Virus record (IMG/VR): IMGVR_UViG_3300035670_000387 | Span: 1 to 45,508 of that record | Origin: a virus | DNA length: 45,508 nt | Strand: one strand, 5' to 3' | In this document: positions 1-45,508 of the stretch, piece by piece | How the letters are laid out: each line of letters starts with the position of its first letter | Numbering within the stretch: position 1 is the first letter of the stretch | Notes under the pieces: model-generated | Databases searched by the model: none | What the model was told of the DNA's origin: nothing | Seen by the model: the letters and a program-made list of their open reading frames with translations, nothing else | Made by a program: the position numbers and the translations under genes

Positions 1-172
1 CCGACCGCGTCCGTGCTGGTGACCGCTCTGCTATTGTCGTACTCAGGAGTGTTATAGTAGTTAGCCCGGGTAGCTCGGGAAGGGGTATGCAAGATCCATG
101 CCATTGAATGGTCGGACCTTCACTGCGGTCTATCGGATGCGCGCTAGGGCGCGCGTGAATGTGATGTGATTG
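1..172. repeat. Terminal direct repeat, left copy
   Basis: Bases 1-172 are repeated at 45337-45508 with a single mismatch (G128 here, C45464 there). The repeat reaches both ends of the window, so it is either an untrimmed overlap of a circular contig or the direct terminal repeat of a linear phage genome. The true repeat could be longer than what is visible. No gene is seen inside it. It carries a GCGCGC-TAGG-GCGCGC hairpin at 139-154 and ends with ATGTGATGTGAT, one arm of an inverted repeat. Confidence 0.95.
139..154. repeat. Short hairpin in the terminal repeat
   Basis: GCGCGC (139-144) and GCGCGC (149-154) pair around a TAGG loop. The stem can be lengthened by a T-G wobble and an A-T pair (137-138 with 155-156). 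It is present in both terminal copies. A role at genome ends, such as cleavage or replication initiation, is only a guess. Confidence 0.6.
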
Positions 173-296: not shown

Positions 297-325
297 CCAA
301 CCAACCGTACATCACGTCTACCTAA

Positions 326-506
326 CCTCTCTCTACTCTCTCTCAAAACTACCTATCTCGGCTGTTTTATTAGTCTTTCCTGTTCAACCCCAACCGGGAA
401 CAATCGCGCCAGCCGAAGCGTCTGTCACGCTTCTTCCCTCTTTTTGGGGCGTGAACAGGAAAGACCATAACAGCCTCGCAGTAGTTTTGATCGTTCGAGA
501 GAGAGG
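326..506. ncRNA. 181-nt rod-like hairpin, candidate structured RNA or origin
   Basis: Five blocks pair in nested order: 326-334 with 498-506 (9 bp), 344-352 with 481-489 (9 bp), 360-366 with 469-475 (7 bp), 373-386 with 452-465 (14 bp) and 388-393 with 444-449 (6 bp). The apical part adds GGGAA 396-400 with TTCCC 434-438 and GAAGCG 415-420 with CGCTTC 428-433, followed by a T-rich stretch. The internal loops differ between the arms, so this is not a fresh inverted duplication. It lies just upstream of the first plus-strand gene. It could be a non-coding RNA, the leader of the early transcript, or a DNA element for replication or packaging. Family unknown; either strand could be the functional one. 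Confidence 0.55.
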
Positions 507-549
507 TTGTGATGGTCATTGCCATAACCAAAAGAAAGGGGCTTCTTCT

Positions 550-774
550 ATGGAACAAAATCAACATGTTAGACAAGCGCGCATTAACGCAGAATTCGGA
601 GGTAAATCGCCAGTGATGGAAGGCACTGGAGGCTGGTTCTTCGTTGATGAAACATGGTGTTACCTCTACGGTCCTTGGAAGTCTGAGGATGAGGCGTGGC
701 AAGCGCTGGATGCGTATTGCGCGATGATGCTGGATGACCCGGCATTCGAACAGAGCATGGCAAACATTTCGTAA
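550..774 (+). CDS. Hypothetical 74-residue early protein
   Basis: First gene of the plus-strand block. I start it at ATG 550 because an AAAGAAAGGGG ribosome binding site precedes it; the frame is open further upstream to 451 but that part overlaps the rod-like hairpin. The product is acidic and Trp-rich (GGWFF near residue 23, WKSEDEAWQAL near 40). I do not recognise a family. It is followed after 15 bp by another small gene with a good binding site, so the two are probably one operon. Confidence 0.7.
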   Translation: MEQNQHVRQARINAEFGGKSPVMEGTGGWFFVDETWCYLYGPWKSEDEAWQALDAYCAMMLDDPAFEQSMANIS

Positions 775-3080: not shown

Positions 3081-3507
3081 CCTCGATGGCACGCTGTCAG
3101 ACTCAAGCAAACGGATTCACCATGTGAGCGGAGCCAAGAAGAACTTCGAAGCGTTCTATGCTGCGGCGAAGTATGACGAGCCGAACAACTGGTGTCGGTG
3201 GATCGTAGACAAGCTTTGCGACCACGTAACCATCATCTTCATGACTGGGCGCCCCATGCGATATCGAGCAGAAACGCGGCAGTGGATCATGGAATACACA
3301 AGACTCAAGGATCCACATTCCTACGAGCTGCTGATGCGAGAAGACGAGGACCACACGAAAGACTCCGAAATGAAGGAAGATCTGTACAGGCAGTACGTGG
3401 CAAAATATTTCAATGTCCTGTTTGCAATCGATGACAGGACGCGCGTGGTCGAAATGTGGCGCAAGCTGGGAATCCCGTGCTTGCAATGTGCGGAAGGTAA
3501 CTTCTAA
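3058..3507 (+). CDS. HAD-superfamily phosphatase, polynucleotide 3'-phosphatase type
   Basis: The 149-residue protein carries the HAD motifs in order: DLDGTL at residues 8-13 (nucleophile Asp8, acid/base Asp10), TGRP at 63-66 (motif II) and IDDR at 124-127 (motif IV), ending with EMWRKLGIPCLQ. This layout matches the phosphatase domain of T4 polynucleotide kinase and many stand-alone phage relatives that remove 3' phosphates from nucleic acids. No kinase P-loop is present. GGGAGAGGAGC precedes ATG 3058. A nucleotidase role is possible. Confidence 0.8.
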   Translation: MKPAIIIDLDGTLSDSSKRIHHVSGAKKNFEAFYAAAKYDEPNNWCRWIVDKLCDHVTIIFMTGRPMRYRAETRQWIMEYTRLKDPHSYELLMREDEDHTKDSEMKEDLYRQYVAKYFNVLFAIDDRTRVVEMWRKLGIPCLQCAEGNF

Positions 3508-4856
3508 TGCCCGAAACAGTTAGCGTGGACGCAGCAAGGCCGAAGCTACCAATACGCATTAACCCAAAGCATTACCGGATTACAATGGAGGTGAATTATC
3601 GACTGGACTCGTACGATTACAACAATCGCGAAGATTACATGGTGCACTGTCGTAGGCGCATCTACGTAATCAATGCATTACGAGAAGCTGCTGCGATCCT
3701 CGAGCGCAAGAAAAGAACTGCAACGCCACAGTTGCGGGATACGGGACTCGTAGGTAGGACTGCGGCCAACATGCGAGACAACATTCGCGAGTTGCGCAGG
3801 TCAATCTCGTCCCAAACAGTAGTCACGCACGCCATAACACACATCAAAACGGGAGCCTGCTGGCGTTACACACCATATACGTCGGAGCTCGAGTTAGGGC
3901 TTTCACGACGATCTTACTGGTTCGACATCCTGTCAGGCCTGCGAGATGCGATTCGAGCAAAGAGGGAGCGGCAAAGGCTAGTTCTGAAGAAAAAGAGCCG
4001 CATCGAGGAATACTACGTGAAGCTGGCTGCAAAAAGACAAAGGCTGTTGGATGCGCCAAAAAGGCCGTTGACGCCAGAGCCGCACGTCGGCATCGAAATC
4101 GAATTCTTCCATCCAAGGGACGTGCGAGTGAAGATCGTCAACGACATTTTCAAGGTGCCTGGGCTACCGGATCGCTTGAGCTTCGTGGGAGATGCGAGCA
4201 TTCAGCCGGATACAGAGCATTACACGCCGCTCGAGATCCGCATCGTTGCTGCGCAGAACGAGTACGAGCAGGTCGTAAAAGATACGTGCGCAATACTGAA
4301 TCGGCATGGTGCACGAATCAACAAGACATGCGGCTTGCATGTGCATTTGGACCAGCGGCAAGTGTGCTCGACGGACAACTTTGGGTACATCGACTATGCA
4401 AAGGCCAAAGCACGTACGTTGCGTTTGATTAAAGCGCAAAGCTTGCTGTTTGACCTCGTGCCCAAGTCGCGAAGATCGAGCACGTACTCGAAGCAGACGT
4501 CAGCAACGTCGTACACAAACGCTGATAGATACTCGGCGATCAACTGGCAAGCCATTCGAGAACACTGCACGGTGGAAGTGCGGCTGCATGCGGGTACGCT
4601 GAATGCACGCAAGATCAACAACTGGGTAAAGCTGCTGATCGCGCTGCAGGATGAGCAAGAAATGGACCAGTTTACTCGGTCACCGACCAGCATGAGAACG
4701 TGGAAAGGGATCCTCGAAAAGCATGGAGAGGATCTTTGGAAGTACATCGAGGAAAGGCGTACGGCGTTCGAGAATGACAGTCGTGACGAAACGGAAGAGT
4801 TGCCGGAGATCCCGATGCAGCTGCGTTCAGCGTCAGAATTTCAACTTAGATATTAG
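3507..4856 (+). CDS. Amidoligase (Amidoligase_2 type, COOH-NH2 ligase)
   Basis: The 449-residue protein shows the pattern of the glutamate-cysteine-ligase-like amidoligase family in its second half: GIEIEFF at residues 195-201, LEIRI near 242-246, CGLHVHLD at 275-282, RYSAINW at 341-347 and TVEVRLHAGTLNA at 355-367. The acidic and His residues in these motifs bind Mg-ATP in the family. Such enzymes join a carboxylate to an amine. Residues 1-190 are basic and helical with no recognised domain. The next gene encodes a glutamine amidotransferase that could supply ammonia. In Iyer and Aravind's survey of amidoligases such pairs were proposed to modify peptides or cell wall. The substrate here is unknown. 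Confidence 0.75.
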   Translation: MPETVSVDAARPKLPIRINPKHYRITMEVNYRLDSYDYNNREDYMVHCRRRIYVINALREAAAILERKKRTATPQLRDTGLVGRTAANMRDNIRELRRSISSQTVVTHAITHIKTGACWRYTPYTSELELGLSRRSYWFDILSGLRDAIRAKRERQRLVLKKKSRIEEYYVKLAAKRQRLLDAPKRPLTPEPHVGIEIEFFHPRDVRVKIVNDIFKVPGLPDRLSFVGDASIQPDTEHYTPLEIRIVAAQNEYEQVVKDTCAILNRHGARINKTCGLHVHLDQRQVCSTDNFGYIDYAKAKARTLRLIKAQSLLFDLVPKSRRSSTYSKQTSATSYTNADRYSAINWQAIREHCTVEVRLHAGTLNARKINNWVKLLIALQDEQEMDQFTRSPTSMRTWKGILEKHGEDLWKYIEERRTAFENDSRDETEELPEIPMQLRSASEFQLRY

Positions 4857-4864
4857 GGGGAAGC

Positions 4865-5851
4865 ATGTGTAAGCTGTATTTGAGACCGTGGGGCGGAAGC
4901 CAGTTCGAGTTGCGTGCGTCGCACGAGATGATCACGGGAAAGCCAGAAGATGACGGATTCGGGTACGTCGCACTCAGTGAGACGGGACCGTTCTCGGAAC
5001 GATGGACCGACCCGGACGACGCATTCAAGGTGCCAAGCAGGGAGACCGAGCTCGAGCGTGCGATATTTGGCCCCGACATGGCAAGCCCGCAAAAGACGTA
5101 CGACTTGCGTGGAGAGAAGACGAGTAAGTTCGAAACGTTCATGGCACACGGGAGGCTTGCAACGTGCCCGGTGACCATCGACAACACGCACCCGTTTGCT
5201 GCGGGAGACATTTGGCTCGTTCACAACGGAATGATCTCAGATGGTACACAGCGCAAGTACCCTGCGGTTGACGGAACCTGCGACTCGGAAAGCATCCTGA
5301 AGGCGTACATGAAGCTCGAAGTGGCAAAGAAGTTCGAGAACATCCAAGAACTCTTTGACGAGATGACGGGATCCTTCGCTTGCGGCGTACTTGCCAAAGA
5401 TGCGAACGAACAGTGGATCATGGACGTGTTCCTCAATGACTCACCTACGTTGTGGGGTGGAGTCAACAAGCGTGGTCCCGTGTACTGCACGAACCCGGAA
5501 GCGCTTCACCGCATCACGAAGTGCCCCAAGTTGTACAAGGTGAAGGGTAACACGGCAATTCGCTTCGACATTGCCAACAAGTGCATCGTCGAGAAGCGAA
5601 ACATCGAAGCGAAGAAGTACTACACGACAACAACCACGAAGCAGCTCGAAACGAGCGGGGCGTCGCCATACGAGCGGAGGTCAGAAAGGCAACGCATCAA
5701 AGACCGTTACTCGAGGTGTGACGAATATGATGTCTACTACGATTCGTACCCTGACAGATTTTTTCTCGATGACAAAGAGAATTTGCCAAAAGAAAAAGAC
5801 CAGACAGCTTACGTTGATATGAACCCGTTCAACGAATACGGAGATGTGTGA
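4865..5851 (+). CDS. Class II glutamine amidotransferase (Ntn hydrolase)
   Basis: The 328-residue protein begins MCKLY, placing Cys2 as the N-terminal nucleophile once Met is removed. It has HGRLAT (95-100), NTHPF (107-111), VHNG (119-122) and CDSE (139-142), all signatures of class II glutaminase domains such as those of GlmS and PurF. No sugar-isomerase or phosphoribosyl domain follows, so it is a stand-alone ammonia source. It starts 8 bp after the amidoligase gene behind GGGGGAAGC. The last 80 residues are polar and Tyr-rich with no recognised fold. Confidence 0.8.
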   Translation: MCKLYLRPWGGSQFELRASHEMITGKPEDDGFGYVALSETGPFSERWTDPDDAFKVPSRETELERAIFGPDMASPQKTYDLRGEKTSKFETFMAHGRLATCPVTIDNTHPFAAGDIWLVHNGMISDGTQRKYPAVDGTCDSESILKAYMKLEVAKKFENIQELFDEMTGSFACGVLAKDANEQWIMDVFLNDSPTLWGGVNKRGPVYCTNPEALHRITKCPKLYKVKGNTAIRFDIANKCIVEKRNIEAKKYYTTTTTKQLETSGASPYERRSERQRIKDRYSRCDEYDVYYDSYPDRFFLDDKENLPKEKDQTAYVDMNPFNEYGDV

Positions 5852-11396: not shown

Positions 11397-12299
11397 ATGG
11401 AACATCAAGTGATTGACGCGAACAAAATCTTTGGCATCGAGATCGAGGCGTCTACGCACTGCAACTGGCGCTGCGTGTACTGCCCGGTCTCCCAAGATCC
11501 CAAGCCGCCGCGCTCGATGGACCCCGTGCTATTCCGCCACATCCTCGACAAGGCGGTGGCCCATCGCCCCATGCGGGGCATCTCGATCAACGCCTATTGC
11601 GAGCCCACCATCGACGTGGGCTTCATGCAACGCCTGGACATGATCGCGAACACCCGCCTCAAGCTCACTCTCTACACGAATGGCACCGGCCTCACCCTCG
11701 AACACATCCAGTTCTTGCGCGACACACACATACTGAACGAGATCTGCTTTAACCTCCCCTCGCTCGATCCGCACGTCCATGCAAAGATGACCCAGAGCCC
11801 GTTCTACGCCAAGTCCATCGCAGCCATCGAGAAGTGCTTGGAGTACAGCTTGCCGGTATCCCTCTCGGTCCAAGGTGACGACGCCGAGATCAAAGCAAAT
11901 TTCCCCGGCATCTTCGAGGCCTACGGACAGCGCGTCGGCTTCTCCCCGGCGCACAAGATGGAGTCCTTGCAGTCCTACTCGTCCGACCGCTGCGGCATCC
12001 TAAAGCACGAGCGCTACTACCGCGGCACGAACCTGCAGTTCCCGCTCATCCCATGTCCCGTTCCCGAGACATGGCTCTACGTGAACGTCGACGGGGACTT
12101 GTTCATCTGCTGCGAGGACTACTACCAAGTCACGAAGTACGCGAACATCCGCGACGGTTCGATTGCTGAGCTGATCGCGCTTCCCGCCCGTGCAGCGCAC
12201 CTGCCCGAGAACTGTGGGCCCGACGCGATCTGCCGCCGTTGCGGTCTCATGAACAAACTCATCAACCGACAAAGGAGCCTCAATGTCATTCCTTCGTAA
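11397..12299 (+). CDS. Radical SAM enzyme with SPASM-like C-terminus
   Basis: The 300-residue protein has HCNWRCVYCP, placing Cys22, Cys26 and Cys29 in the CX3CX2C motif that binds the catalytic 4Fe-4S cluster. After the TIM-barrel half, VDGDLFICCED, YANIRDGS and CRRCGL resemble the cysteine-rich SPASM extension of enzymes that modify peptides or sugars. The target is unknown. A weak GGGGTGG lies upstream of ATG 11397. It is the fourth gene of a cluster that reads like a hypermodification or glycan pathway. Confidence 0.75.
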   Translation: MEHQVIDANKIFGIEIEASTHCNWRCVYCPVSQDPKPPRSMDPVLFRHILDKAVAHRPMRGISINAYCEPTIDVGFMQRLDMIANTRLKLTLYTNGTGLTLEHIQFLRDTHILNEICFNLPSLDPHVHAKMTQSPFYAKSIAAIEKCLEYSLPVSLSVQGDDAEIKANFPGIFEAYGQRVGFSPAHKMESLQSYSSDRCGILKHERYYRGTNLQFPLIPCPVPETWLYVNVDGDLFICCEDYYQVTKYANIRDGSIAELIALPARAAHLPENCGPDAICRRCGLMNKLINRQRSLNVIPS

Positions 12300-14950: not shown

Positions 14951-17326
14951 GTGCCATATGAACTCGATAGGGAAGTGCAAGGGACGGGGCCGGAAGGCGG
15001 CCTCCTCATCCTCGGCGAGGCGCCGGGCGCTGACGAAGTCGTCGGTGGTAAGCCGTTCATCGGAAAAGCAGGCAAACTGCTGCGAGGAACGGCTGCTCGA
15101 GCAGGACTCGATCTATCGCAAGCTCGAATCGAGAATGTTGTCGAACGGCGGCCCAAAGATAATGACATCCACGCCGTGCCACTGCAGGAACTGTGCGAGT
15201 GGAGAGAAGACGCTCTTCAACGTGTGGCGCGTGCCCGACCGAGGGTCATTGTTGCTTGTGGCGATACGGCTCTGCAAACTCTGTGTAGCGGCATTGGAAT
15301 CTCGAGTGGACAGTGCTACATCCTGGATAGCCATCGAAGCGAACTAAGCGGCATCCCGATCGTGCCGGTGTATCACCCGGCCTTCATCTTCCGCCAACCG
15401 GACTACGAGCACTGGCTCCGCTGGGGCCTCCAAAAGGCGAAGCGCTTGCTGGACGGCGCGCAGCGTGACCCTGCGCTGAAGCCGCAAATCGCTCCATCGT
15501 ACGAGGCGGCCATGGAGTACCTGCACTCCGCGCGCGAAGCGCCGCGCGTGGCAATCGACATCGAGGTCGCTCGTAACCAGGAGATCACCTGCATCGCCGT
15601 GGCGAAGTCGCCGAGCGACGTCATGAGCATCCCCTTCGCGAAGGAGCGCCTCGAAGACTATTTCGAGTTCCCCGAAGAGCAGGCCATCTGGTATGCCCTC
15701 GCGGAGCTCATGGAGCATGACAATGAAAAGATCTTCCAGAACTTCATCTTCGATACCATGTATCTTGCGCGATACGGCGTCCGCACTCGGGGCCCTCTTT
15801 ACGATACCCTCGTGGTTGCGAACGTACTCAACCCCGAACTGCCGAAAGGGCTTGACGACCTCGGGCGGCTCCACTGCATGTGCCCCCCGTGGAAGAACAA
15901 CAAAGACTACCAGCTCGACGGAGACCCTCTCAAGTTCTGGGTCTACAACGCGACCGACGCGGCGCGCACCTTCCAGATCGCGGAAGACCAAGAGCGCTGG
16001 CTCACGGCGCGCGGCCTCCAAGCTTTCTATGACGACCGTGTTAAGCCGTTACTCCCGCTCGTTCTCGATACCTGCTCCCGAGGAATGCGAGTCTCCCAGG
16101 AAGCGCGGGCGTCGCTGAATGACCGCATCCGAGGACTACTCGAGCCCGTATACAGTCAGCTGCGTGAGCTTGGCGACCCTCTCGTACCCCCGAAAGAAGT
16201 CAAGCGCAAGCGCAAGACGGGCACGGTCATCGAACTCAAGAAGCAGCCGTTCAATCCCTCGTCCAATAAGCAAATCAAAGAGTGCCTCTCTGCCCTCGGT
16301 TATCGACTACCTACGAAAGACAGCAAAGAGTCTAGCGACCGCAACGCGCTCCTCAAGCTCAACCGGAAGGAACCGTGCGAATTTATACGTCTACTGTTAC
16401 AACATTCAAGACTTGCTAAACTTGAGTCTTCGTACGCGGATGTTGCCCTCGACGAAGATGGGCGTTGCCGTTACACGTTCAACATTGGCGGCACTAAAAG
16501 CGGTCGCTTCAGTTCTTCCGCTACCCCGTGGGAGACGGGACTCAACATCCAAACGATCCCGCGCAAAGACCCGACGTACGACTTGAACTTCCGCCGCGCC
16601 TTTATCGCGGACGAAGGCATGCAGCTCCTGCAGGTGGACCTCTCCCAAGCTGAGCTGCGCGTCGTCGCCTGGGTCGCGCGCGAGGAAAAGCTTACCCGCC
16701 TCTTGGAGGACAAAGAAGATGTTCATGCATATACAGCTCGGGAGGTTGAACGTATTTCTGGGCTTCCTTGCCCACGCCAGCTGGGCAAGCGCATCAACCA
16801 CGCCGCAAACTACGGCATGGGCCCCACCAAATTCGCAGACTCCTGCCTCGTCGAGTCCGACCTCGCCATTACCGAAAACCAAGCAAGACTGCTCTTGGAT
16901 GCCCGCGCCAAAGCGTTCCCGGCCATCCCCATCTGGCACCAACACGTCGAGCGAGAGCTCCGCAAAACCCGACGATTGGTATCGCCACACGGACGGGAAC
17001 GTTACTTTTTTACGCCGATTATCACACCTGCTACCATTCGTGAAGCCCTCTCCTTCATCCCCCAAGCCACCGTCGTAGACACGCTTAACGCGGTGTGGCG
17101 TGACATCTCCCGCATCCCGGGCTATAACGACTTCTACAATGTCCTACAGCAAGGTCACGACTCCTTACTCATCCAAGTCCGATCCGAGAGTATTGACGAT
17201 TTGGTTGCCATCCTCAACAAAGCCTTCGCCGCACAAGAAGTCATCATCCACGGAGTCCCGCGCCTCATCCCATGGGACATCTCCGTCGGGTCGTCTTGGG
17301 GAGACCTCCATGCTTATCAACCGTAA
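14951..17326 (+). CDS. Uracil-DNA glycosylase-like / 3'-5' exonuclease / family A DNA polymerase
   Basis: GTG 14951 follows GGGAGGAG. Residues 1-165 resemble family 4/5 uracil-DNA glycosylase (LGEAPGADE at 21-29, GKPFIGKAG at 33-41, HPAF at 142-145). Residues 195-345 hold a DEDD exonuclease (Asp203, Glu205, Asp268, Tyr332 and Asp336 of YxxxD). The polymerase follows with motif A (DLSQAELR, Asp563), motif B (Arg609, Lys613, Tyr621) and motif C (HD at 736-737). It is the replicative polymerase. The glycosylase part lacks the N-terminal Cys pair that helps bind Fe-S in family 4. The residue matching E. coli Phe762 is His617, which is unusual. All three catalytic HD/D residues are intact. Confidence 0.9.
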   Translation: MPYELDREVQGTGPEGGLLILGEAPGADEVVGGKPFIGKAGKLLRGTAARAGLDLSQARIENVVERRPKDNDIHAVPLQELCEWREDALQRVARARPRVIVACGDTALQTLCSGIGISSGQCYILDSHRSELSGIPIVPVYHPAFIFRQPDYEHWLRWGLQKAKRLLDGAQRDPALKPQIAPSYEAAMEYLHSAREAPRVAIDIEVARNQEITCIAVAKSPSDVMSIPFAKERLEDYFEFPEEQAIWYALAELMEHDNEKIFQNFIFDTMYLARYGVRTRGPLYDTLVVANVLNPELPKGLDDLGRLHCMCPPWKNNKDYQLDGDPLKFWVYNATDAARTFQIAEDQERWLTARGLQAFYDDRVKPLLPLVLDTCSRGMRVSQEARASLNDRIRGLLEPVYSQLRELGDPLVPPKEVKRKRKTGTVIELKKQPFNPSSNKQIKECLSALGYRLPTKDSKESSDRNALLKLNRKEPCEFIRLLLQHSRLAKLESSYADVALDEDGRCRYTFNIGGTKSGRFSSSATPWETGLNIQTIPRKDPTYDLNFRRAFIADEGMQLLQVDLSQAELRVVAWVAREEKLTRLLEDKEDVHAYTAREVERISGLPCPRQLGKRINHAANYGMGPTKFADSCLVESDLAITENQARLLLDARAKAFPAIPIWHQHVERELRKTRRLVSPHGRERYFFTPIITPATIREALSFIPQATVVDTLNAVWRDISRIPGYNDFYNVLQQGHDSLLIQVRSESIDDLVAILNKAFAAQEVIIHGVPRLIPWDISVGSSWGDLHAYQP

Positions 17327-40000: not shown

Positions 40001-41913
40001 TACATCCCCTGCTGTGGACCGGGTTGCGGCATGGAGCCGACGCCCGTCTGTGACGGAGTACCAGCGCGCCCTTGATTGGGCCCGCCACCGCCGCCTTCCA
40101 ACTCGGCCTGCGCGAGGGCCTGTTCCCGGATCGCCTGCTTTTGGTCGATGAGCGCCCGCTCCTGCGCGTCCGGCTGGATCTCTTCGAGATCGAGGCCGAG
40201 ACCGCGTGCGATGACAAGCCCGATCTTGGCGACCGAGATCTGGCTCTCGACTTGCTGCGCGGTGATCGGATTCGCTGTCAGCGTGCTCATGTAGTTGATC
40301 GCGGCCTGGGCCTTCGCAGCGTTCGCCATGAGACCCTTCATTCCACGACCGTAGAACTTGAACGACCCCTCGATGTCAGCGAAGCGATCCTTCGTCGACA
40401 TCTTCAAAAACTGTTCCGCCTTCCCTTGATCCGTACCAAACCACGACCGAACCTCGTCGGGGTCCATGTCGTCGACATGCTGCATGATCTCGTAGAACGC
40501 CTCGATCGCCAGCTTCTCGATGAAGATGTCCTCGATGTCCGCGGCCATACTATCGAACACGTCGCTGATCGCCGAGTTCGCCGTAATGATCTCCGTGCTC
40601 CGTACCTGCTTTCCAGGCATGTTGCCGGAGAGGTCGAGCTGGTTCGAAATCACGTTCTCCGCGAACGCCCGCTCCAGCGTCTGGAACATCATCATGGCGT
40701 CTTGCGGCACCTCACCCGTCTTTAGCACGCCCATCGGTACCGCGCCTGCGGGTGCACTCGAATCGATGGCGATCTGGTCGCCGTCCTTGATTCCGCCGCT
40801 CGCCTGCTTTTTATCCGCGAACCAGTCTTCGCGGTACCACGTCACGTTGTGCGCAGCCTTGATGCCACCCGTAATGAGCAGCGTGAAGAACTCGTCTGCG
40901 GCTTCGTTCAGATCCACGCCTGCGTCGAGCAGGGCTTTGCGACCGGTCCCAGGCGACCGAATGGGGTCCGCCGTGACGAACGGCGCTTTGCCCGACCAGC
41001 GCGTCACACGCTTCGGATCAACCAGTAACTCGCTCTCGTTGCCAACGACGCACATCACATTGCGCAAGGGGATCTCGGTTCCGTCTTCGGTCTTCCACAT
41101 GTAGACCTTGCCGTCGTTGTCGAGGATCGTCCCATAGAAGTTCTGGATCAGGTTCTGCACCCGCTTCCGGTTCGTCTGTCTCTTCTCCGGATTTCCCTCG
41201 GCAATCTTCTTCTCTTCCTCCGCCTCGTGATGCCCGAAGTCCTTCATGGCATCCACCGCCTCAAGCCGATACGGCTTGTCCGCGGTCTGCTCCTCGCTCG
41301 CCAGATCCCGCACGAGGTAGTGGTCCGTCATGAACTCTTCAATCTCGAACAACTTCCGCTTCGGGTCGAACGTATCGCACAGGTAGTTCTCGAACGGCAG
41401 ATTCGTCAGGTCGAGAGACCAGTAGGTCTTCTCCTCCTTGACCAGCTTGCCGTCCTTCGACGTGAACCGGGGCTTCGTGACCTGCTTGCCGCCGATCTTC
41501 AAACTCATGCGGCTTTCGACGCCGCCGCACAGGATCGCGTCCGAGATCACGGTCTTCGCATCGCAGCCTTCGAATTGGCTCACCAGCGCGTTCTTCGCAA
41601 CATACTCGTTCACGATCGCGTCCGGTTTCTGCGCGATGCGCTGAACCGCGATCCAGTTGTCGTACTTCATCAACGCGCTCTTGAACTTCGCGCGCATGCG
41701 CTCGGCTGCGACGCCGAACTTGTGGAGGTGAATCCGAGGGTCTCCCTCGCGCTTGTGCGACCAGTCAACCTGCCCGTGGTAATACTGCCAATTCTTCTGA
41801 TTCTGCGGTCTCCGCTTGTCCTTCTCGTTTGTGCGGGACTCTTCGGCGCATTGCAGAACCCAATCTACAACGTCCTTCCGCTGCTTATCCAAAATCTGCT
41901 TATATTCGGGCAT
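40000..41913 (-). CDS. Portal protein
   Basis: ATG 41913 follows GAGGGGATAAA. The 637-residue protein has the expected portal layout: an N-terminal charged helix region (DVVDWVLQCAEESRTNEKDK), a beta-rich wing (SLDLTNLPFENYLCDTFDPK), the long C-terminal helical part with a stem/crown (NEAADEFFTLLITGG; SGNMPGKQVRSTEIITANS) and an acidic and Gly/Pro/Gln-rich tail. Portals form the dodecameric entry for DNA at one vertex and dock with terminase. Its place after terminase is typical. Confidence 0.8.
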   Translation of the reverse strand: MPEYKQILDKQRKDVVDWVLQCAEESRTNEKDKRRPQNQKNWQYYHGQVDWSHKREGDPRIHLHKFGVAAERMRAKFKSALMKYDNWIAVQRIAQKPDAIVNEYVAKNALVSQFEGCDAKTVISDAILCGGVESRMSLKIGGKQVTKPRFTSKDGKLVKEEKTYWSLDLTNLPFENYLCDTFDPKRKLFEIEEFMTDHYLVRDLASEEQTADKPYRLEAVDAMKDFGHHEAEEEKKIAEGNPEKRQTNRKRVQNLIQNFYGTILDNDGKVYMWKTEDGTEIPLRNVMCVVGNESELLVDPKRVTRWSGKAPFVTADPIRSPGTGRKALLDAGVDLNEAADEFFTLLITGGIKAAHNVTWYREDWFADKKQASGGIKDGDQIAIDSSAPAGAVPMGVLKTGEVPQDAMMMFQTLERAFAENVISNQLDLSGNMPGKQVRSTEIITANSAISDVFDSMAADIEDIFIEKLAIEAFYEIMQHVDDMDPDEVRSWFGTDQGKAEQFLKMSTKDRFADIEGSFKFYGRGMKGLMANAAKAQAAINYMSTLTANPITAQQVESQISVAKIGLVIARGLGLDLEEIQPDAQERALIDQKQAIREQALAQAELEGGGGGPNQGRAGTPSQTGVGSMPQPGPQQGM

Positions 41914-41914
41914 T

Positions 41915-42133
41915 TTATCCCCTCGTAAATGAATATCTCGGACGCCGTATCCGAGGAGCGCCTTGTCGAGATGCTTTGCGGCAAGTATAGCACAATCCGA
42001 TCAATCGTTCCAATTCGCTCAGCTGCTGGATGTGGCACCGCTTGCACACGCTTTGCAATCTCAACACCGGATGTTGATAATACGACGAGTCCGACTCAAT
42101 GCGGTCCACCCGCATGTCGTTCTTCTCAGCCAT
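41915..42133 (-). CDS. Zinc-ribbon protein between terminase and portal
   Basis: ATG 42133 overlaps the terminase stop. The 72-residue product has VCKRC and CYTC 17 residues apart (about 29-51), a zinc-ribbon or treble-clef arrangement, and a basic C-terminus (RKASRQGAPRIRRPRY). No Shine-Dalgarno is seen; translation is probably coupled. It may be a packaging cofactor. An HNH nuclease is unlikely, because no His-Asn-His pattern follows. Confidence 0.5.
   Translation of the reverse strand: MAEKNDMRVDRIESDSSYYQHPVLRLQSVCKRCHIQQLSELERLIGLCYTCRKASRQGAPRIRRPRYSFTRG
41984..42013 (-). promoter_or_regulatory. Candidate promoter for portal and following genes
   Basis: On the minus strand: TTGGAA (42013-42008), 18-bp spacer, TATACT (41989-41984), with TG one base before the -10 (extended -10). 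It lies inside the Zn-ribbon gene, about 70 bp before the portal start. Being within coding sequence lowers confidence. Confidence 0.4.
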
Positions 42134-43019
42134 TGAACTTGTACCGCGGAAGTACGAGACTACGTTCGTAGTCCTCGTCCTCGCTACGGCCCCGCTTCGT
42201 GTGCACCTGCATCCGCAGCGCCACATATTGCAGCGCATCGTGAATATGCGAATACAAGTTCTTCACGGGCCGGTCCGACTTCTTGCTCTGGGTCGGCTTT
42301 TCCGGCAAGTGGTACCCACCCTCGAACCCCTTGATGAGCATCGTGCAGTGCGGGTTAATCAGGAGGCACGGCTTGCCATCTGAGTCCAGCCGCATCAGCA
42401 GCCGAATAACCGCATCCACACGCTTTTCCGGGTCGTTCGACGAAGCAGCAATGGGGTGTAAACCTTCGTCCCGCATAACGTCGGTGCACGCCTTCCCCTC
42501 AGCCGTCTTTCCTTCCCAGGCCGCAGAAGGATCCACCACGTCGATGTAATGAAAATCAGCACCAAAATTAGAGTTGCAATACGCAATCACCTCCGGGGCG
42601 AACTTCCTCGTGTTCTGTCCCCCGTTTGGAATCTCATCAAGCACCCACAACCTCTGCCCGATCACCTGACAAATCACCGTCGACTGGTTCCCACCGAAGT
42701 CCCAGCCCCGAAAGATCGGGTAACTCGGGTTCACAGGTACCGCACGCGCAAGCAGGTGCAGATGCCGATGGTACGCCCCGTCATACACAGGCTTCCCTGC
42801 AAACGTCTCCCAGGACCGCTCCATCTCGATCGCCCACTGCTTGGGCGGCATTCCCTGCTTCTCATTCTCGATCCACTTCGGATCCCTCTTTCGCGGGTCC
42901 GCGATGAAATCCAGCTCCACAACCACGAACCCGTTCTTCGGGTTCCGCCGAATCGAGAACCCCGTCGGATCCTCCGGCACGAACCTCTGAAACTCATCTA
43001 CGACTTTAGTGTGCTGCAC
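42126..43019 (-). CDS. terL: Large terminase, C-terminal nuclease part (split)
   Basis: The 297-residue frame has RGWDFGG (first Asp of the RNase H-like nuclease), DVVDPSA in the middle and HIHDALQY at the C-terminus, the acidic triad of terminase nuclease domains. It begins in the linker between ATPase and nuclease. In-frame TAA at 43032-43034 closes it upstream, and its first codon is GTG without a Shine-Dalgarno. The ATPase half is the next upstream gene in another frame. Joining the two at shared GAT GAG codons would give about 508 residues, a normal terminase length. Confidence 0.8.
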   Translation of the reverse strand: MQHTKVVDEFQRFVPEDPTGFSIRRNPKNGFVVVELDFIADPRKRDPKWIENEKQGMPPKQWAIEMERSWETFAGKPVYDGAYHRHLHLLARAVPVNPSYPIFRGWDFGGNQSTVICQVIGQRLWVLDEIPNGGQNTRKFAPEVIAYCNSNFGADFHYIDVVDPSAAWEGKTAEGKACTDVMRDEGLHPIAASSNDPEKRVDAVIRLLMRLDSDGKPCLLINPHCTMLIKGFEGGYHLPEKPTQSKKSDRPVKNLYSHIHDALQYVALRMQVHTKRGRSEDEDYERSLVLPRYKFNG

Positions 43020-43116
43020 GGGCTTGGTTGGTTAGGAAACGAATGGAAGGGGGCGGAGAAGGGGGGTGGGAGGAAGGACGGACGCGGAAGTGCGGTGGCG
43101 CAGCTCAGCGTTACAG
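42999..43116 (-). other. Segment interrupting the large terminase gene
   Basis: The codons GAT GAG occur at the end of the ATPase half (43122-43117) and at residues 8-9 of the nuclease half (42998-42993). Between them lie 118 bases, 124 with one repeat copy, that contain stops in both frames and a 13-nt direct-repeat pair (TGAGCTG twice) next to the first stop. The coding strand is polypyrimidine through the middle (43038-43080). It could be a bypassed region like T4 gene 60, a spliced or deleted element, or true gene fission. It is too short for a normal group I or II intron. Confidence 0.5.
43030..43078. repeat. Polypurine element, copy in the terminase gap
   Basis: On the plus strand GGTTAG (43030-43035), then 13 bases, GGGGGCGGAGA (43049-43059), a 7-base insert and TGGGAGGAAGGA (43067-43078). 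The same three blocks in the same order, without the 7-base insert and with a 12-base first gap, occur at 45156-45196. G-run density allows quadruplex or triplex structures. Confidence 0.5.
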
Positions 43117-43776
43117 CTCATCGTTCACGAGCCTCTTGTAGAAGGAGTCGACGCCGCTTTCTTGCATGGCGTGCGTCGAGACGATCGTGAGCCCGCCCCC
43201 TCCCTGCAGGGTGGGCTTTGCGGCGCTGTAGGTCGCTTCGGCCTCGGGCCAGAAGTCGAGCTCATCGAAGAAAAGCTTAGAGAAACCATATTGGCGTGTC
43301 TGGTCCGGGCCCATAGCCAGCGCATGTACTGTGGACTCGATTTCGTCAAAGAACATGAATCCTTCTTTGACTCGCAGGGTTGGTCGGGCTTCTTTGGGCC
43401 AGATGTCTTGGGGGATATGTTCATAGATGAATCCCATGTTGCGGAGGTGTGCGCATGCGTCCTCGAATTTCTTGGAAACGATGCCGACACGACGGTTCGT
43501 GTTCGTGAAGGCGTAATGGAGGTGGAGGGCCAGGAAGAGCCACGAGATCCACATGCGGCGGCTCTTGTCAACGATGAGTTTGTCGGTGCTCTGCCAGATG
43601 CGGACGATGGGAGCGAGGTAGGGCTTGTACTGGGGCTGATCCGCACGCGTGGGAGAGGGCTTTACGGGGCGCTTCGAATCCACTTCGTCTTGCGTGTAGA
43701 CGCAGTGGTCGAGGAAGGTGAGCGGATCTTGGAGTTGGATGAGCCGCTCAGCGAGATTGGCGGAGAGCTCGGCCAC
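43111..43776 (-). CDS. terL: Large terminase, N-terminal ATPase part (split)
   Basis: The 221-residue frame has DKSRRMWISW as the Walker A-type motif of terminases (about residues 70-79), LFFDELDFWPEAEA as Walker B, and GGGGLTIVSTHAMQE as motif III/C. It pumps DNA into the head. The frame stops after SFYKRLVNDEL, exactly before where the nuclease linker should follow. GTG 43776 is the first start after the small terminase stop; no Shine-Dalgarno is seen, and both halves share the start context AGCCCGTG. Confidence 0.8.
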   Translation of the reverse strand: MAELSANLAERLIQLQDPLTFLDHCVYTQDEVDSKRPVKPSPTRADQPQYKPYLAPIVRIWQSTDKLIVDKSRRMWISWLFLALHLHYAFTNTNRRVGIVSKKFEDACAHLRNMGFIYEHIPQDIWPKEARPTLRVKEGFMFFDEIESTVHALAMGPDQTRQYGFSKLFFDELDFWPEAEATYSAAKPTLQGGGGLTIVSTHAMQESGVDSFYKRLVNDEL

Positions 43777-43779
43777 GGG

Positions 43780-44457
43780 CTAGGAGGAACCCATTTTGGG
43801 GAGGAGGCCCTTGGCTTCGGCGTACTTGTCGTCCTCGCCGAAGTCGGGGACGATGGCCCGGGTGCGCTCTTCACGGAGCTTCATGAGCTGCTCGGTGAGC
43901 TCGCGGACGTTCATGCCGGTGATTTCTCGGGATTCCTTGGGCTTGCCGTGCTTTTGCTCGTAGAACCACTTGGCGACGTCTGCGCGGGTGCTGGCGGAGA
44001 CGGTGGGGTCGTCGCGGATCGTGCGGAGGACGTCGATGGCGCTGTATTGCTCGCGGTCAATGAGTTCCTTGGAATCCTTCTGACCAATGTGGAAATTGAA
44101 CGCCGCAATGAACTCGACTGAGACTTCTTCCTCCAACCAGCGCTTAACCGTTTTGACGTTGCGGCCGCTGGCGAGCGCGATTTTTGTTTGCGGCCAGCCA
44201 AGGCAGTGAGCGACACAAAATGTGCGCTGTTCCGGCGTGAGGTTGAACTTCGCGGCAAGATGCGCCGGGAATTTGACCTTTGCGACATCCTTTAAGTGCT
44301 CCCAGTCGGACTTGGCGTCCTCTTCCTCGGGCGTTTCGGGGCCGTCGTAGGCGGGATTTGCGGCTTTGGCCTCGTTGATGACCTTTTGACGAGTCTTTTT
44401 GCGCTCTTCCTCGGCCCAAATGACGCGCGGATCACGATTGTCGACGTATTTCGGCAT
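43780..44457 (-). CDS. terS: Small terminase subunit
   Basis: The 225-residue protein has a helix-turn-helix-like region about 72-112 (LTPEQRTFCVAHCLGWPQTK, ASGRNVKTVKRWLEEE) and a helical C-terminal half (STRADVAKWFYEQKHGKPKE; VRELTEQLMKLREERTR), as in small terminases that recognise the packaging site and recruit the large subunit. It directly precedes the terminase ATPase and follows a promoter. GAGGACC precedes ATG 44457. Confidence 0.75.
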   Translation of the reverse strand: MPKYVDNRDPRVIWAEEERKKTRQKVINEAKAANPAYDGPETPEEEDAKSDWEHLKDVAKVKFPAHLAAKFNLTPEQRTFCVAHCLGWPQTKIALASGRNVKTVKRWLEEEVSVEFIAAFNFHIGQKDSKELIDREQYSAIDVLRTIRDDPTVSASTRADVAKWFYEQKHGKPKESREITGMNVRELTEQLMKLREERTRAIVPDFGEDDKYAEAKGLLPKMGSS

Positions 44458-44535: not shown

Positions 44536-45096
44536 TTAGCGTTTGGAGATGGTCTGGATGCGACTTTTTACGCGGTTGTAGACTTGCTCGGTGACCGCGA
44601 GGTCCATTTTGTTGTGATGGATGATTTCGTCGAAATTTTTGTGCGTTTTGAAGCCGGTGCGGGCCTCGACTTCGGCGCATTTCCAGGTGTTGATGTCGAG
44701 CGGAGTCTTCTTGGAGGCACAACCGAGGACGCGAGAGGCCCAATCGAGGCGCGATGAGGTGAAGGTGCTCTTGCCCATGCGTACCATGTACATGATGTCG
44801 CTGTGGAACTTCTTTGAGAGCTGATTTTGGTGTGTGAGAAGTAGGCGGTCGTTGATGTAAGGAATGTCAAACATGATCCCGTTCCAGGTGATCAGGTAGT
44901 CGTACGAGTCGAGGACGTTGCGAACGTTCTCCATGAGACGCTTGTCGATGTGGAGAGGGTCTTTGCTGGGCGAGGGGTAGTCGCGGAGGCTGAGAATGAG
45001 CGGCGGACGCCCGAGCTCTTTGATGCCGCAGCAGAGCATGAAGCCCGCGTCTGCTTTTAATGTCGTGCACTCGATGTCTACGATGCAGGTTCTCAT
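44536..45096 (-). CDS. RNase H-fold 3'-5' exonuclease (DEDD)
   Basis: The 186-residue protein has CIVDIECTT (Asp and Glu of motif I), ITWNGIMFDIPYINDR (motif II), KFHSDIMYMVR and IIHHNKMDLAVTEQVY (motif III, HxxxD), the pattern of YprB-like / RNase_H_2 and related DEDD exonucleases. It probably degrades or trims nucleic acid, possibly RNA. It is the first minus-strand gene after the non-coding hub and starts right at a promoter, suggesting early expression apart from the late genes. Confidence 0.75.
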   Translation of the reverse strand: MRTCIVDIECTTLKADAGFMLCCGIKELGRPPLILSLRDYPSPSKDPLHIDKRLMENVRNVLDSYDYLITWNGIMFDIPYINDRLLLTHQNQLSKKFHSDIMYMVRMGKSTFTSSRLDWASRVLGCASKKTPLDINTWKCAEVEARTGFKTHKNFDEIIHHNKMDLAVTEQVYNRVKSRIQTISKR

Positions 45097-45336: not shown

Positions 45337-45508
45337 CCGACCGCGTCCGTGCTGGTGACCGCTCTGCTATTGTCGTACTCAGGAGTGTTATAGTAGTTAG
45401 CCCGGGTAGCTCGGGAAGGGGTATGCAAGATCCATGCCATTGAATGGTCGGACCTTCACTGCGCTCTATCGGATGCGCGCTAGGGCGCGCGTGAATGTGA
45501 TGTGATTG
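45337..45508. repeat. Terminal direct repeat, right copy
   Basis: Identical to bases 1-172 except C45464 in place of G128. It ends exactly at the window end. See the left copy for the two possible explanations (contig overlap or genuine direct terminal repeat). Confidence 0.95.

Follow-up and report, generated by a model that had tools for sequence, protein, structure and literature searches.

The mitochondrial origin OriL is a hairpin with a T-stretch in its loop, on which POLRMT begins primers, while the stem keeps mtSSB off (PMC4256270); the herpes simplex virus origin OriS has inverted binding boxes on both sides of an AT-rich spacer and can take the form of a hairpin (PMC12543377). The window analysed here (the whole 45,508-nt stretch of DNA, from a virus record) contains near its left end a long imperfect inverted repeat that folds into a rod-like hairpin, and its distant relatives carry comparable hairpins, hereafter called rods. 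Like OriL, rods are stem–loops, often with a T-stretch at the tip, but OriL is short, whereas the arms of the 46 rods described below mostly measure about 40–145 nt; moreover, the tract in the relatives is 8–26 nt long and occurs on either strand, and priming at rods is proposed by analogy. With the herpesvirus origins OriS and OriL, rods share a hairpin form and inverted arms that enclose an AT-rich spacer, but the herpesvirus boxes are conserved binding sites whereas rod arms have no common sequence. As in lambda-type iteron origins, repeats and an AT-rich stretch are combined in or near the early and replication genes, roughly half of the rods showing an enrichment in iteron-like short direct repeats (the window's own does not); unlike these origins, rods have no common iteron, do not lie within an initiator gene and are palindromic, where lambda-type repeats are direct. 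Finally, 6S RNA and the structured phage RNAs of Rfam resemble rods in size (near 180–250 nt) and outline, but rods show neither an Rfam match nor a G-U signature. A literature search of partial coverage returned no phage precedent for such a hairpin.

The hairpin of the window occupies positions 323–509 and is real, far beyond chance. Its minimum-energy fold (Table 1) contains the five nested blocks of 9, 9, 7, 14 and 6 bp that an earlier note had read directly from the letters, the two outer ones being slightly longer (12 and 10 bp), as well as two small tip stems. As RNA, the stretch 300–530 folds with −91.6 kcal/mol on the + strand (z −9.5) and −108 kcal/mol on the − strand (z −11.05), a stability that none of 200 shuffles equalled; as DNA, the stretch 318–514 gives a z of −9.9. 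In a BLAST comparison of the rod region with its own record, the sole match besides self was its own reverse complement (324–508, 68%, E 5e-9). Scanning the whole window for rods gave 323–509 a score of 46, as compared to 33 for the next-best place in the 45-kb contig and 33 for the best place in 40 dinucleotide shuffles of the whole window. Rods were detected with a single scoring scheme throughout; sliding-window minimum free energies were dropped as a detector, being too noisy and with windows seldom fitting the rod.

Table 1. Positions of the rod, its helices and neighbouring features in the window
Feature	Positions	Strand	Remarks
Terminal direct repeat, left copy	1–172		repeat comparison
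Left arm	323–400	+	pyrimidine-rich; C over G skew 0.66 in aligned part; pairs with right arm
Apex	401–433	+	contains small stems 406–413 and 415–433
Right arm	434–509	+	purine-rich
Pyrimidine run TTCTTCCCTCTTTTT	431–445	+	near apex; ends in T5 (441–445)
Helix 1 (outermost)	323–334/498–509		12 bp; minimum-energy fold
Helix 2	343–352/481–490		10 bp; minimum-energy fold
Helix 3	360–366/469–475		7 bp; minimum-energy fold
Helix 4	373–386/452–465		14 bp; minimum-energy fold
Helix 5	388–393/444–449		6 bp; minimum-energy fold
Helix 6	396–400/434–438		5 bp; minimum-energy fold
Tip stem	415–421/427–433		7 bp; minimum-energy fold
Further tip stem	406–407/412–413		2 bp; minimum-energy fold
First good early gene	550–774	+	74 aa; purine-rich ribosome-site-like stretch before start
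UDG–DNA polymerase A fusion	14951–17326	+	used to find relatives
DNA polymerase exonuclease-like gene	44536–45096	−	late-strand side of the gap; first gene recognised there
Terminal direct repeat, right copy	45337–45508		1 mismatch, at position 128 of the repeat

The rod lies in the non-coding, divergent gap between the late genes, which run leftward (split terminase, head–tail adaptor-like protein, capsid), and the early genes, which run rightward (small genes, polynucleotide kinase, amidoligase, Sak4-like protein, UDG–PolA polymerase, primase). The location given in the earlier note, a gene-free gap after the 172-nt terminal repeat and before the gene at 550, is correct in these respects, but the window is a metagenomic contig, a circular or terminally redundant assembly, and the 'genome end' beside which the rod had been placed may not be a physical end. 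Genes were called as simple ORFs, which makes the spacing to the first early gene an approximation.

Searches for near relatives of the window by megablast or blastn in phages, by single-protein scans with the exonuclease, the first gene or the polymerase, by a scan with the rod DNA pattern and by polymerase pair alignment returned none from the collections searched. The closest relative, G001 (polymerase about 41%), is a contig that ends at the gap, hiding any rod, and a genome scan with the polymerase as query matched mostly the UDG part in bacterial genomes and found no host. Using polymerase matches in GenBank phages and IMG/VR, we assembled a first set of 36 genomes linked by the UDG–PolA fusion polymerase (28 IMG/VR contigs taken whole, 7 GenBank records and the window), which were all rotated so that the polymerase came to lie at 25 kb. 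A second set of 80 more loci, with only a few contigs in common with the first, was collected via the terminase (TerL) of one subgroup (the L003 clade). Altogether, the two sets provided 46 non-redundant rods.

In most rotated genomes, the strongest long inverted repeat is found at 7.7–15.8 kb, which corresponds to the start of the early region, and 27 of the 30 rods scoring 41 or more fall inside a zone covering 21% of the 36 genomes (p 1.7e-15), a zone that was chosen after the first examples had been viewed, the enrichment being nonetheless very large. The TerL-based set agrees: where the contig extends far enough upstream of TerL, many loci of that set show the same pattern of a rod with a homopolymer tract, 1.1–5.3 kb upstream of TerL. 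About two thirds of the distant relatives have a hairpin of the same size class in the corresponding position, and the polymerases of rod-bearing phages share as little as 26–30% identity with that of the window. Rods have a median span of 235 nt, and a genome usually has a single one, close to where early and late genes diverge. In Microcystis phage Mel-JY34, a culturable relative, the rod lies at 44129–44291 (DNA z −5.6). No rod above score 36 was found in T7, lambda, Gordonia Margaret, Serbin, PMBT14 and Mwe-JY08.

Near their midpoint, 34 of the 46 rods contain an A/T homopolymer at least 8 nt long (median distance 9 nt), with T on the early strand in 27 cases and A in 7. Within 60 nt of rod centres, the density of runs of this length is 260 times that of the remaining sequence, and in GC-rich genomes the rod tract is often the only one in the genome. 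About a quarter of the rods, including that of the window, have no tract of 8 nt or more, and in some genomes a tract is present without a rod. The window is assigned to this class of elements by position, size and shape, the long homopolymer being absent; its run TTCTTCCCTCTTTTT with T5 may be a weak counterpart of the T8–T25 tracts of the relatives, and our best guess is that it carries a divergent copy of the element, in which the left arm is rich in C and T and the tip has no more than T5. Note that a T run by itself was not taken for the element, some being ordinary terminators (G014 at 11866, G040, VS-ABTNL-3 at 42033); that the hairpin of VS-ABTNL-3 at 40665–40790 is a weak case (z −2.1); and that the rods of G002 and G027, which are AT-rich and of low complexity, may not belong to the element.

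Arm sequences are unrelated between phages, even where the polymerases are 70–77% identical, and comparison across the relatives yielded no sequence common to the rods, hence no conserved initiator-binding sequence. Recurrence at the same place, usually with an apical A/T tract, supports an element that is conserved while its sequence turns over. Only two rods, L179 and L182, can be clearly aligned (73% identity); about 35 nt around their apical T9 tract are identical while the arms differ, and a scan with the apex pattern recovered only these two again. When one of them was folded and the fate of its pairs followed in the other, 57 of the 100 base pairs tested were unchanged, 12 were kept as wobble pairs, 2 were compensatory and 29 were broken, the same as in a shuffled null and with no excess of compensation, the power of the comparison being limited by its resting on one pair of rods. 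RNAalifold had hinted at zero broken pairs, a circular result that the unbiased count reversed. Selection on the rod at the level of base pairs is therefore not demonstrated, and the earlier note's proposal that the pairing is under selection gains no support here; the pattern that it had named as refuting, uncompensated changes in one arm, is seen in L179/L182, a single pair that does not include the rod of the window. The overall shape may be under stabilising selection, strand switching may regenerate the rods repeatedly, or both may apply.

This turnover could also be that of a mutational by-product, the gap holding a fork-stalling or priming hotspot at which fold-back synthesis would make inverted duplications that decay, with arms devoid of function. 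The absence of arm similarity between phages with 70–77% identical polymerases and the changes in L179/L182, which are those expected without selection on pairing, fit this explanation, and insect mitochondrial control regions, where palindromes are abundant and their expansion and curing have been proposed, offer a precedent (PMC1762429). However, fresh, near-perfect long copies are absent (among the 46 rods, arm pairs at least 60 nt long never exceed about 85% identity), although such copies may be unstable or fail to be assembled, and an element that usually occurs once per genome, at a fixed place and with a central tract, needs a site-specific cause. Altogether, we consider a by-product unlikely.

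A structure that works as RNA tolerates G-U pairs but not A-C pairs. In Watson–Crick-only alignments of the 46 rods, mismatches of the G-U type number 141 and those of the A-C type 125 on the early strand (p 0.36), and neither strand shows an excess of G-U over A-C; in the rod of the window, G-U types number 0 on the early strand and 2 on the opposite strand, which is also the strand that folds better. These counts bear on the possibility that transcription of the rod yields a small non-coding RNA or an early leader, acting for instance as an RNase III target, a decoy for a host factor, or a 6S-like or antitermination element. Such an RNA would be well placed at the start of the early operon, the rods are very stable (z −5 to −11), T lies on the early strand in 27 of the 34 tracts, and the pyrimidine-rich left arm of some rods might avoid misfolding during transcription. 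Against these points, besides the balance of mismatches and the better fold of the opposite strand, the strand of the tract differs in 7 of 34 cases, no sigma-70-like promoter was found in positions 1–2300 of the window, and Rfam gave no notable match even at lax thresholds, in agreement with the earlier note, which had named no phage RNA family of this outline. Since there is no G-U excess, Rfam is silent and the strand of the tract can flip, RNA is not favoured, contrary to the RNA roles that the note had considered, and a DNA-level feature fits better; we regard an early RNA as unlikely, about as much as a by-product.

Could the rod instead be a packaging or genome-end signal, such as a pac/cos-like site or a hairpin end? 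In the window it is 150 nt from the terminal repeat, and in the TerL clade contigs often stop close to the rod, 6 of the 19 that bear a tract doing so no more than 170 nt from it; however, poor sequencing would also be expected to leave contig ends at hairpins and homopolymers, and contigs closed by end repeats (e.g. G005, G010, G025, G034 and G041) run through the rod, which is thus not a break in all molecules. We consider a packaging or end signal very unlikely. The IMG/VR contigs L184, L187, L189, L214, L220 and L238, loci of the TerL clade, end 20–170 nt from the rod tract, which suggests either that hairpins break assemblies or that these ends are real.

The reading that we prefer, with somewhat less than even confidence, is that rods are hairpins acting at the DNA level in an origin-like way, in a large group of 39–51 kb tailed phages with a UDG–PolA polymerase. 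It builds on the A/T tip, the inverted arms and the location beside the early region, usually in a single copy, in phages that have their own polymerase and primase; the lack of wobble asymmetry is as expected if Watson–Crick DNA pairing matters. The A/T-rich centre is an origin-type trait, displayed by the window only weakly (T5). Of the options offered by the earlier note, the cruciform origin comes nearest. In the proposed mechanism, (i) the duplex would open through supercoiling, early transcription or strand displacement; (ii) the opened strand would fold into the rod, keeping single-strand-binding protein off; (iii) the rod would expose or melt the A/T tip; (iv) the phage primase or the host RNA polymerase would lay a primer at the tip; and (v) the PolA-type polymerase would extend it. 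GC skew has its extremes elsewhere than at the rod and gives no consistent signal, and no initiator protein was identified for the candidate origin. The broader proposal, that a giant hairpin free of conserved sequence but conserved in shape and position, with an A/T tip, forms an undescribed class of tailed-phage initiator replacing a sequence-specific origin, is more doubtful. If confirmed, it would allow the start of replication to be located by shape across a large group of environmental phages, and would add an origin of the hairpin-with-T-tip type outside mitochondria; in most metagenomic phages the origin has escaped recognition, there being no shared sequence to go by. Should the arms be no more than by-products, rods would still mark a recurrent site of replication or strand switching.

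Several minor observations concern the vicinity of the rods and the window itself. A short motif, roughly TGCCC..TAAACA.CCCC...TTGACCCACCCCC, is found about 250–400 nt upstream of the rod centre in L220, L223, L240, L245, L247, L251 and L252, whose rod arms are unrelated; it is possibly a promoter, a terminator or a binding site. At the record junction of BcepC6B (L010; 42411 to 103), a phage otherwise different, a separate and shorter palindrome of 108 nt (81% identity), with inverted GGGACGATA repeats, lies beside the polymerase/primase gene. In the window, the large terminase is divided between two ORFs (42126–43019 and 43111–43776, − strand, 91-nt gap), the N part being Terminase_6N-like and the C part TerL-like; a frameshift, an insertion or an assembly error are possible causes. 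The early region (3507–5851 and 11397–12299, +) encodes an amidoligase, a glutamine amidotransferase-like protein and a radical SAM/SPASM protein, possibly a small modification or cell-wall module. In the polymerase gene, the uracil-DNA glycosylase domain lies N-terminal to the family A DNA polymerase, a fusion common to many relatives. Finally, a second strong GC-rich hairpin cluster is located between early genes at 2170–2260, the 200-nt stretch starting at 2051 having the lowest GC-corrected fold energy of the window scan; this cluster is probably a terminator or attenuator.
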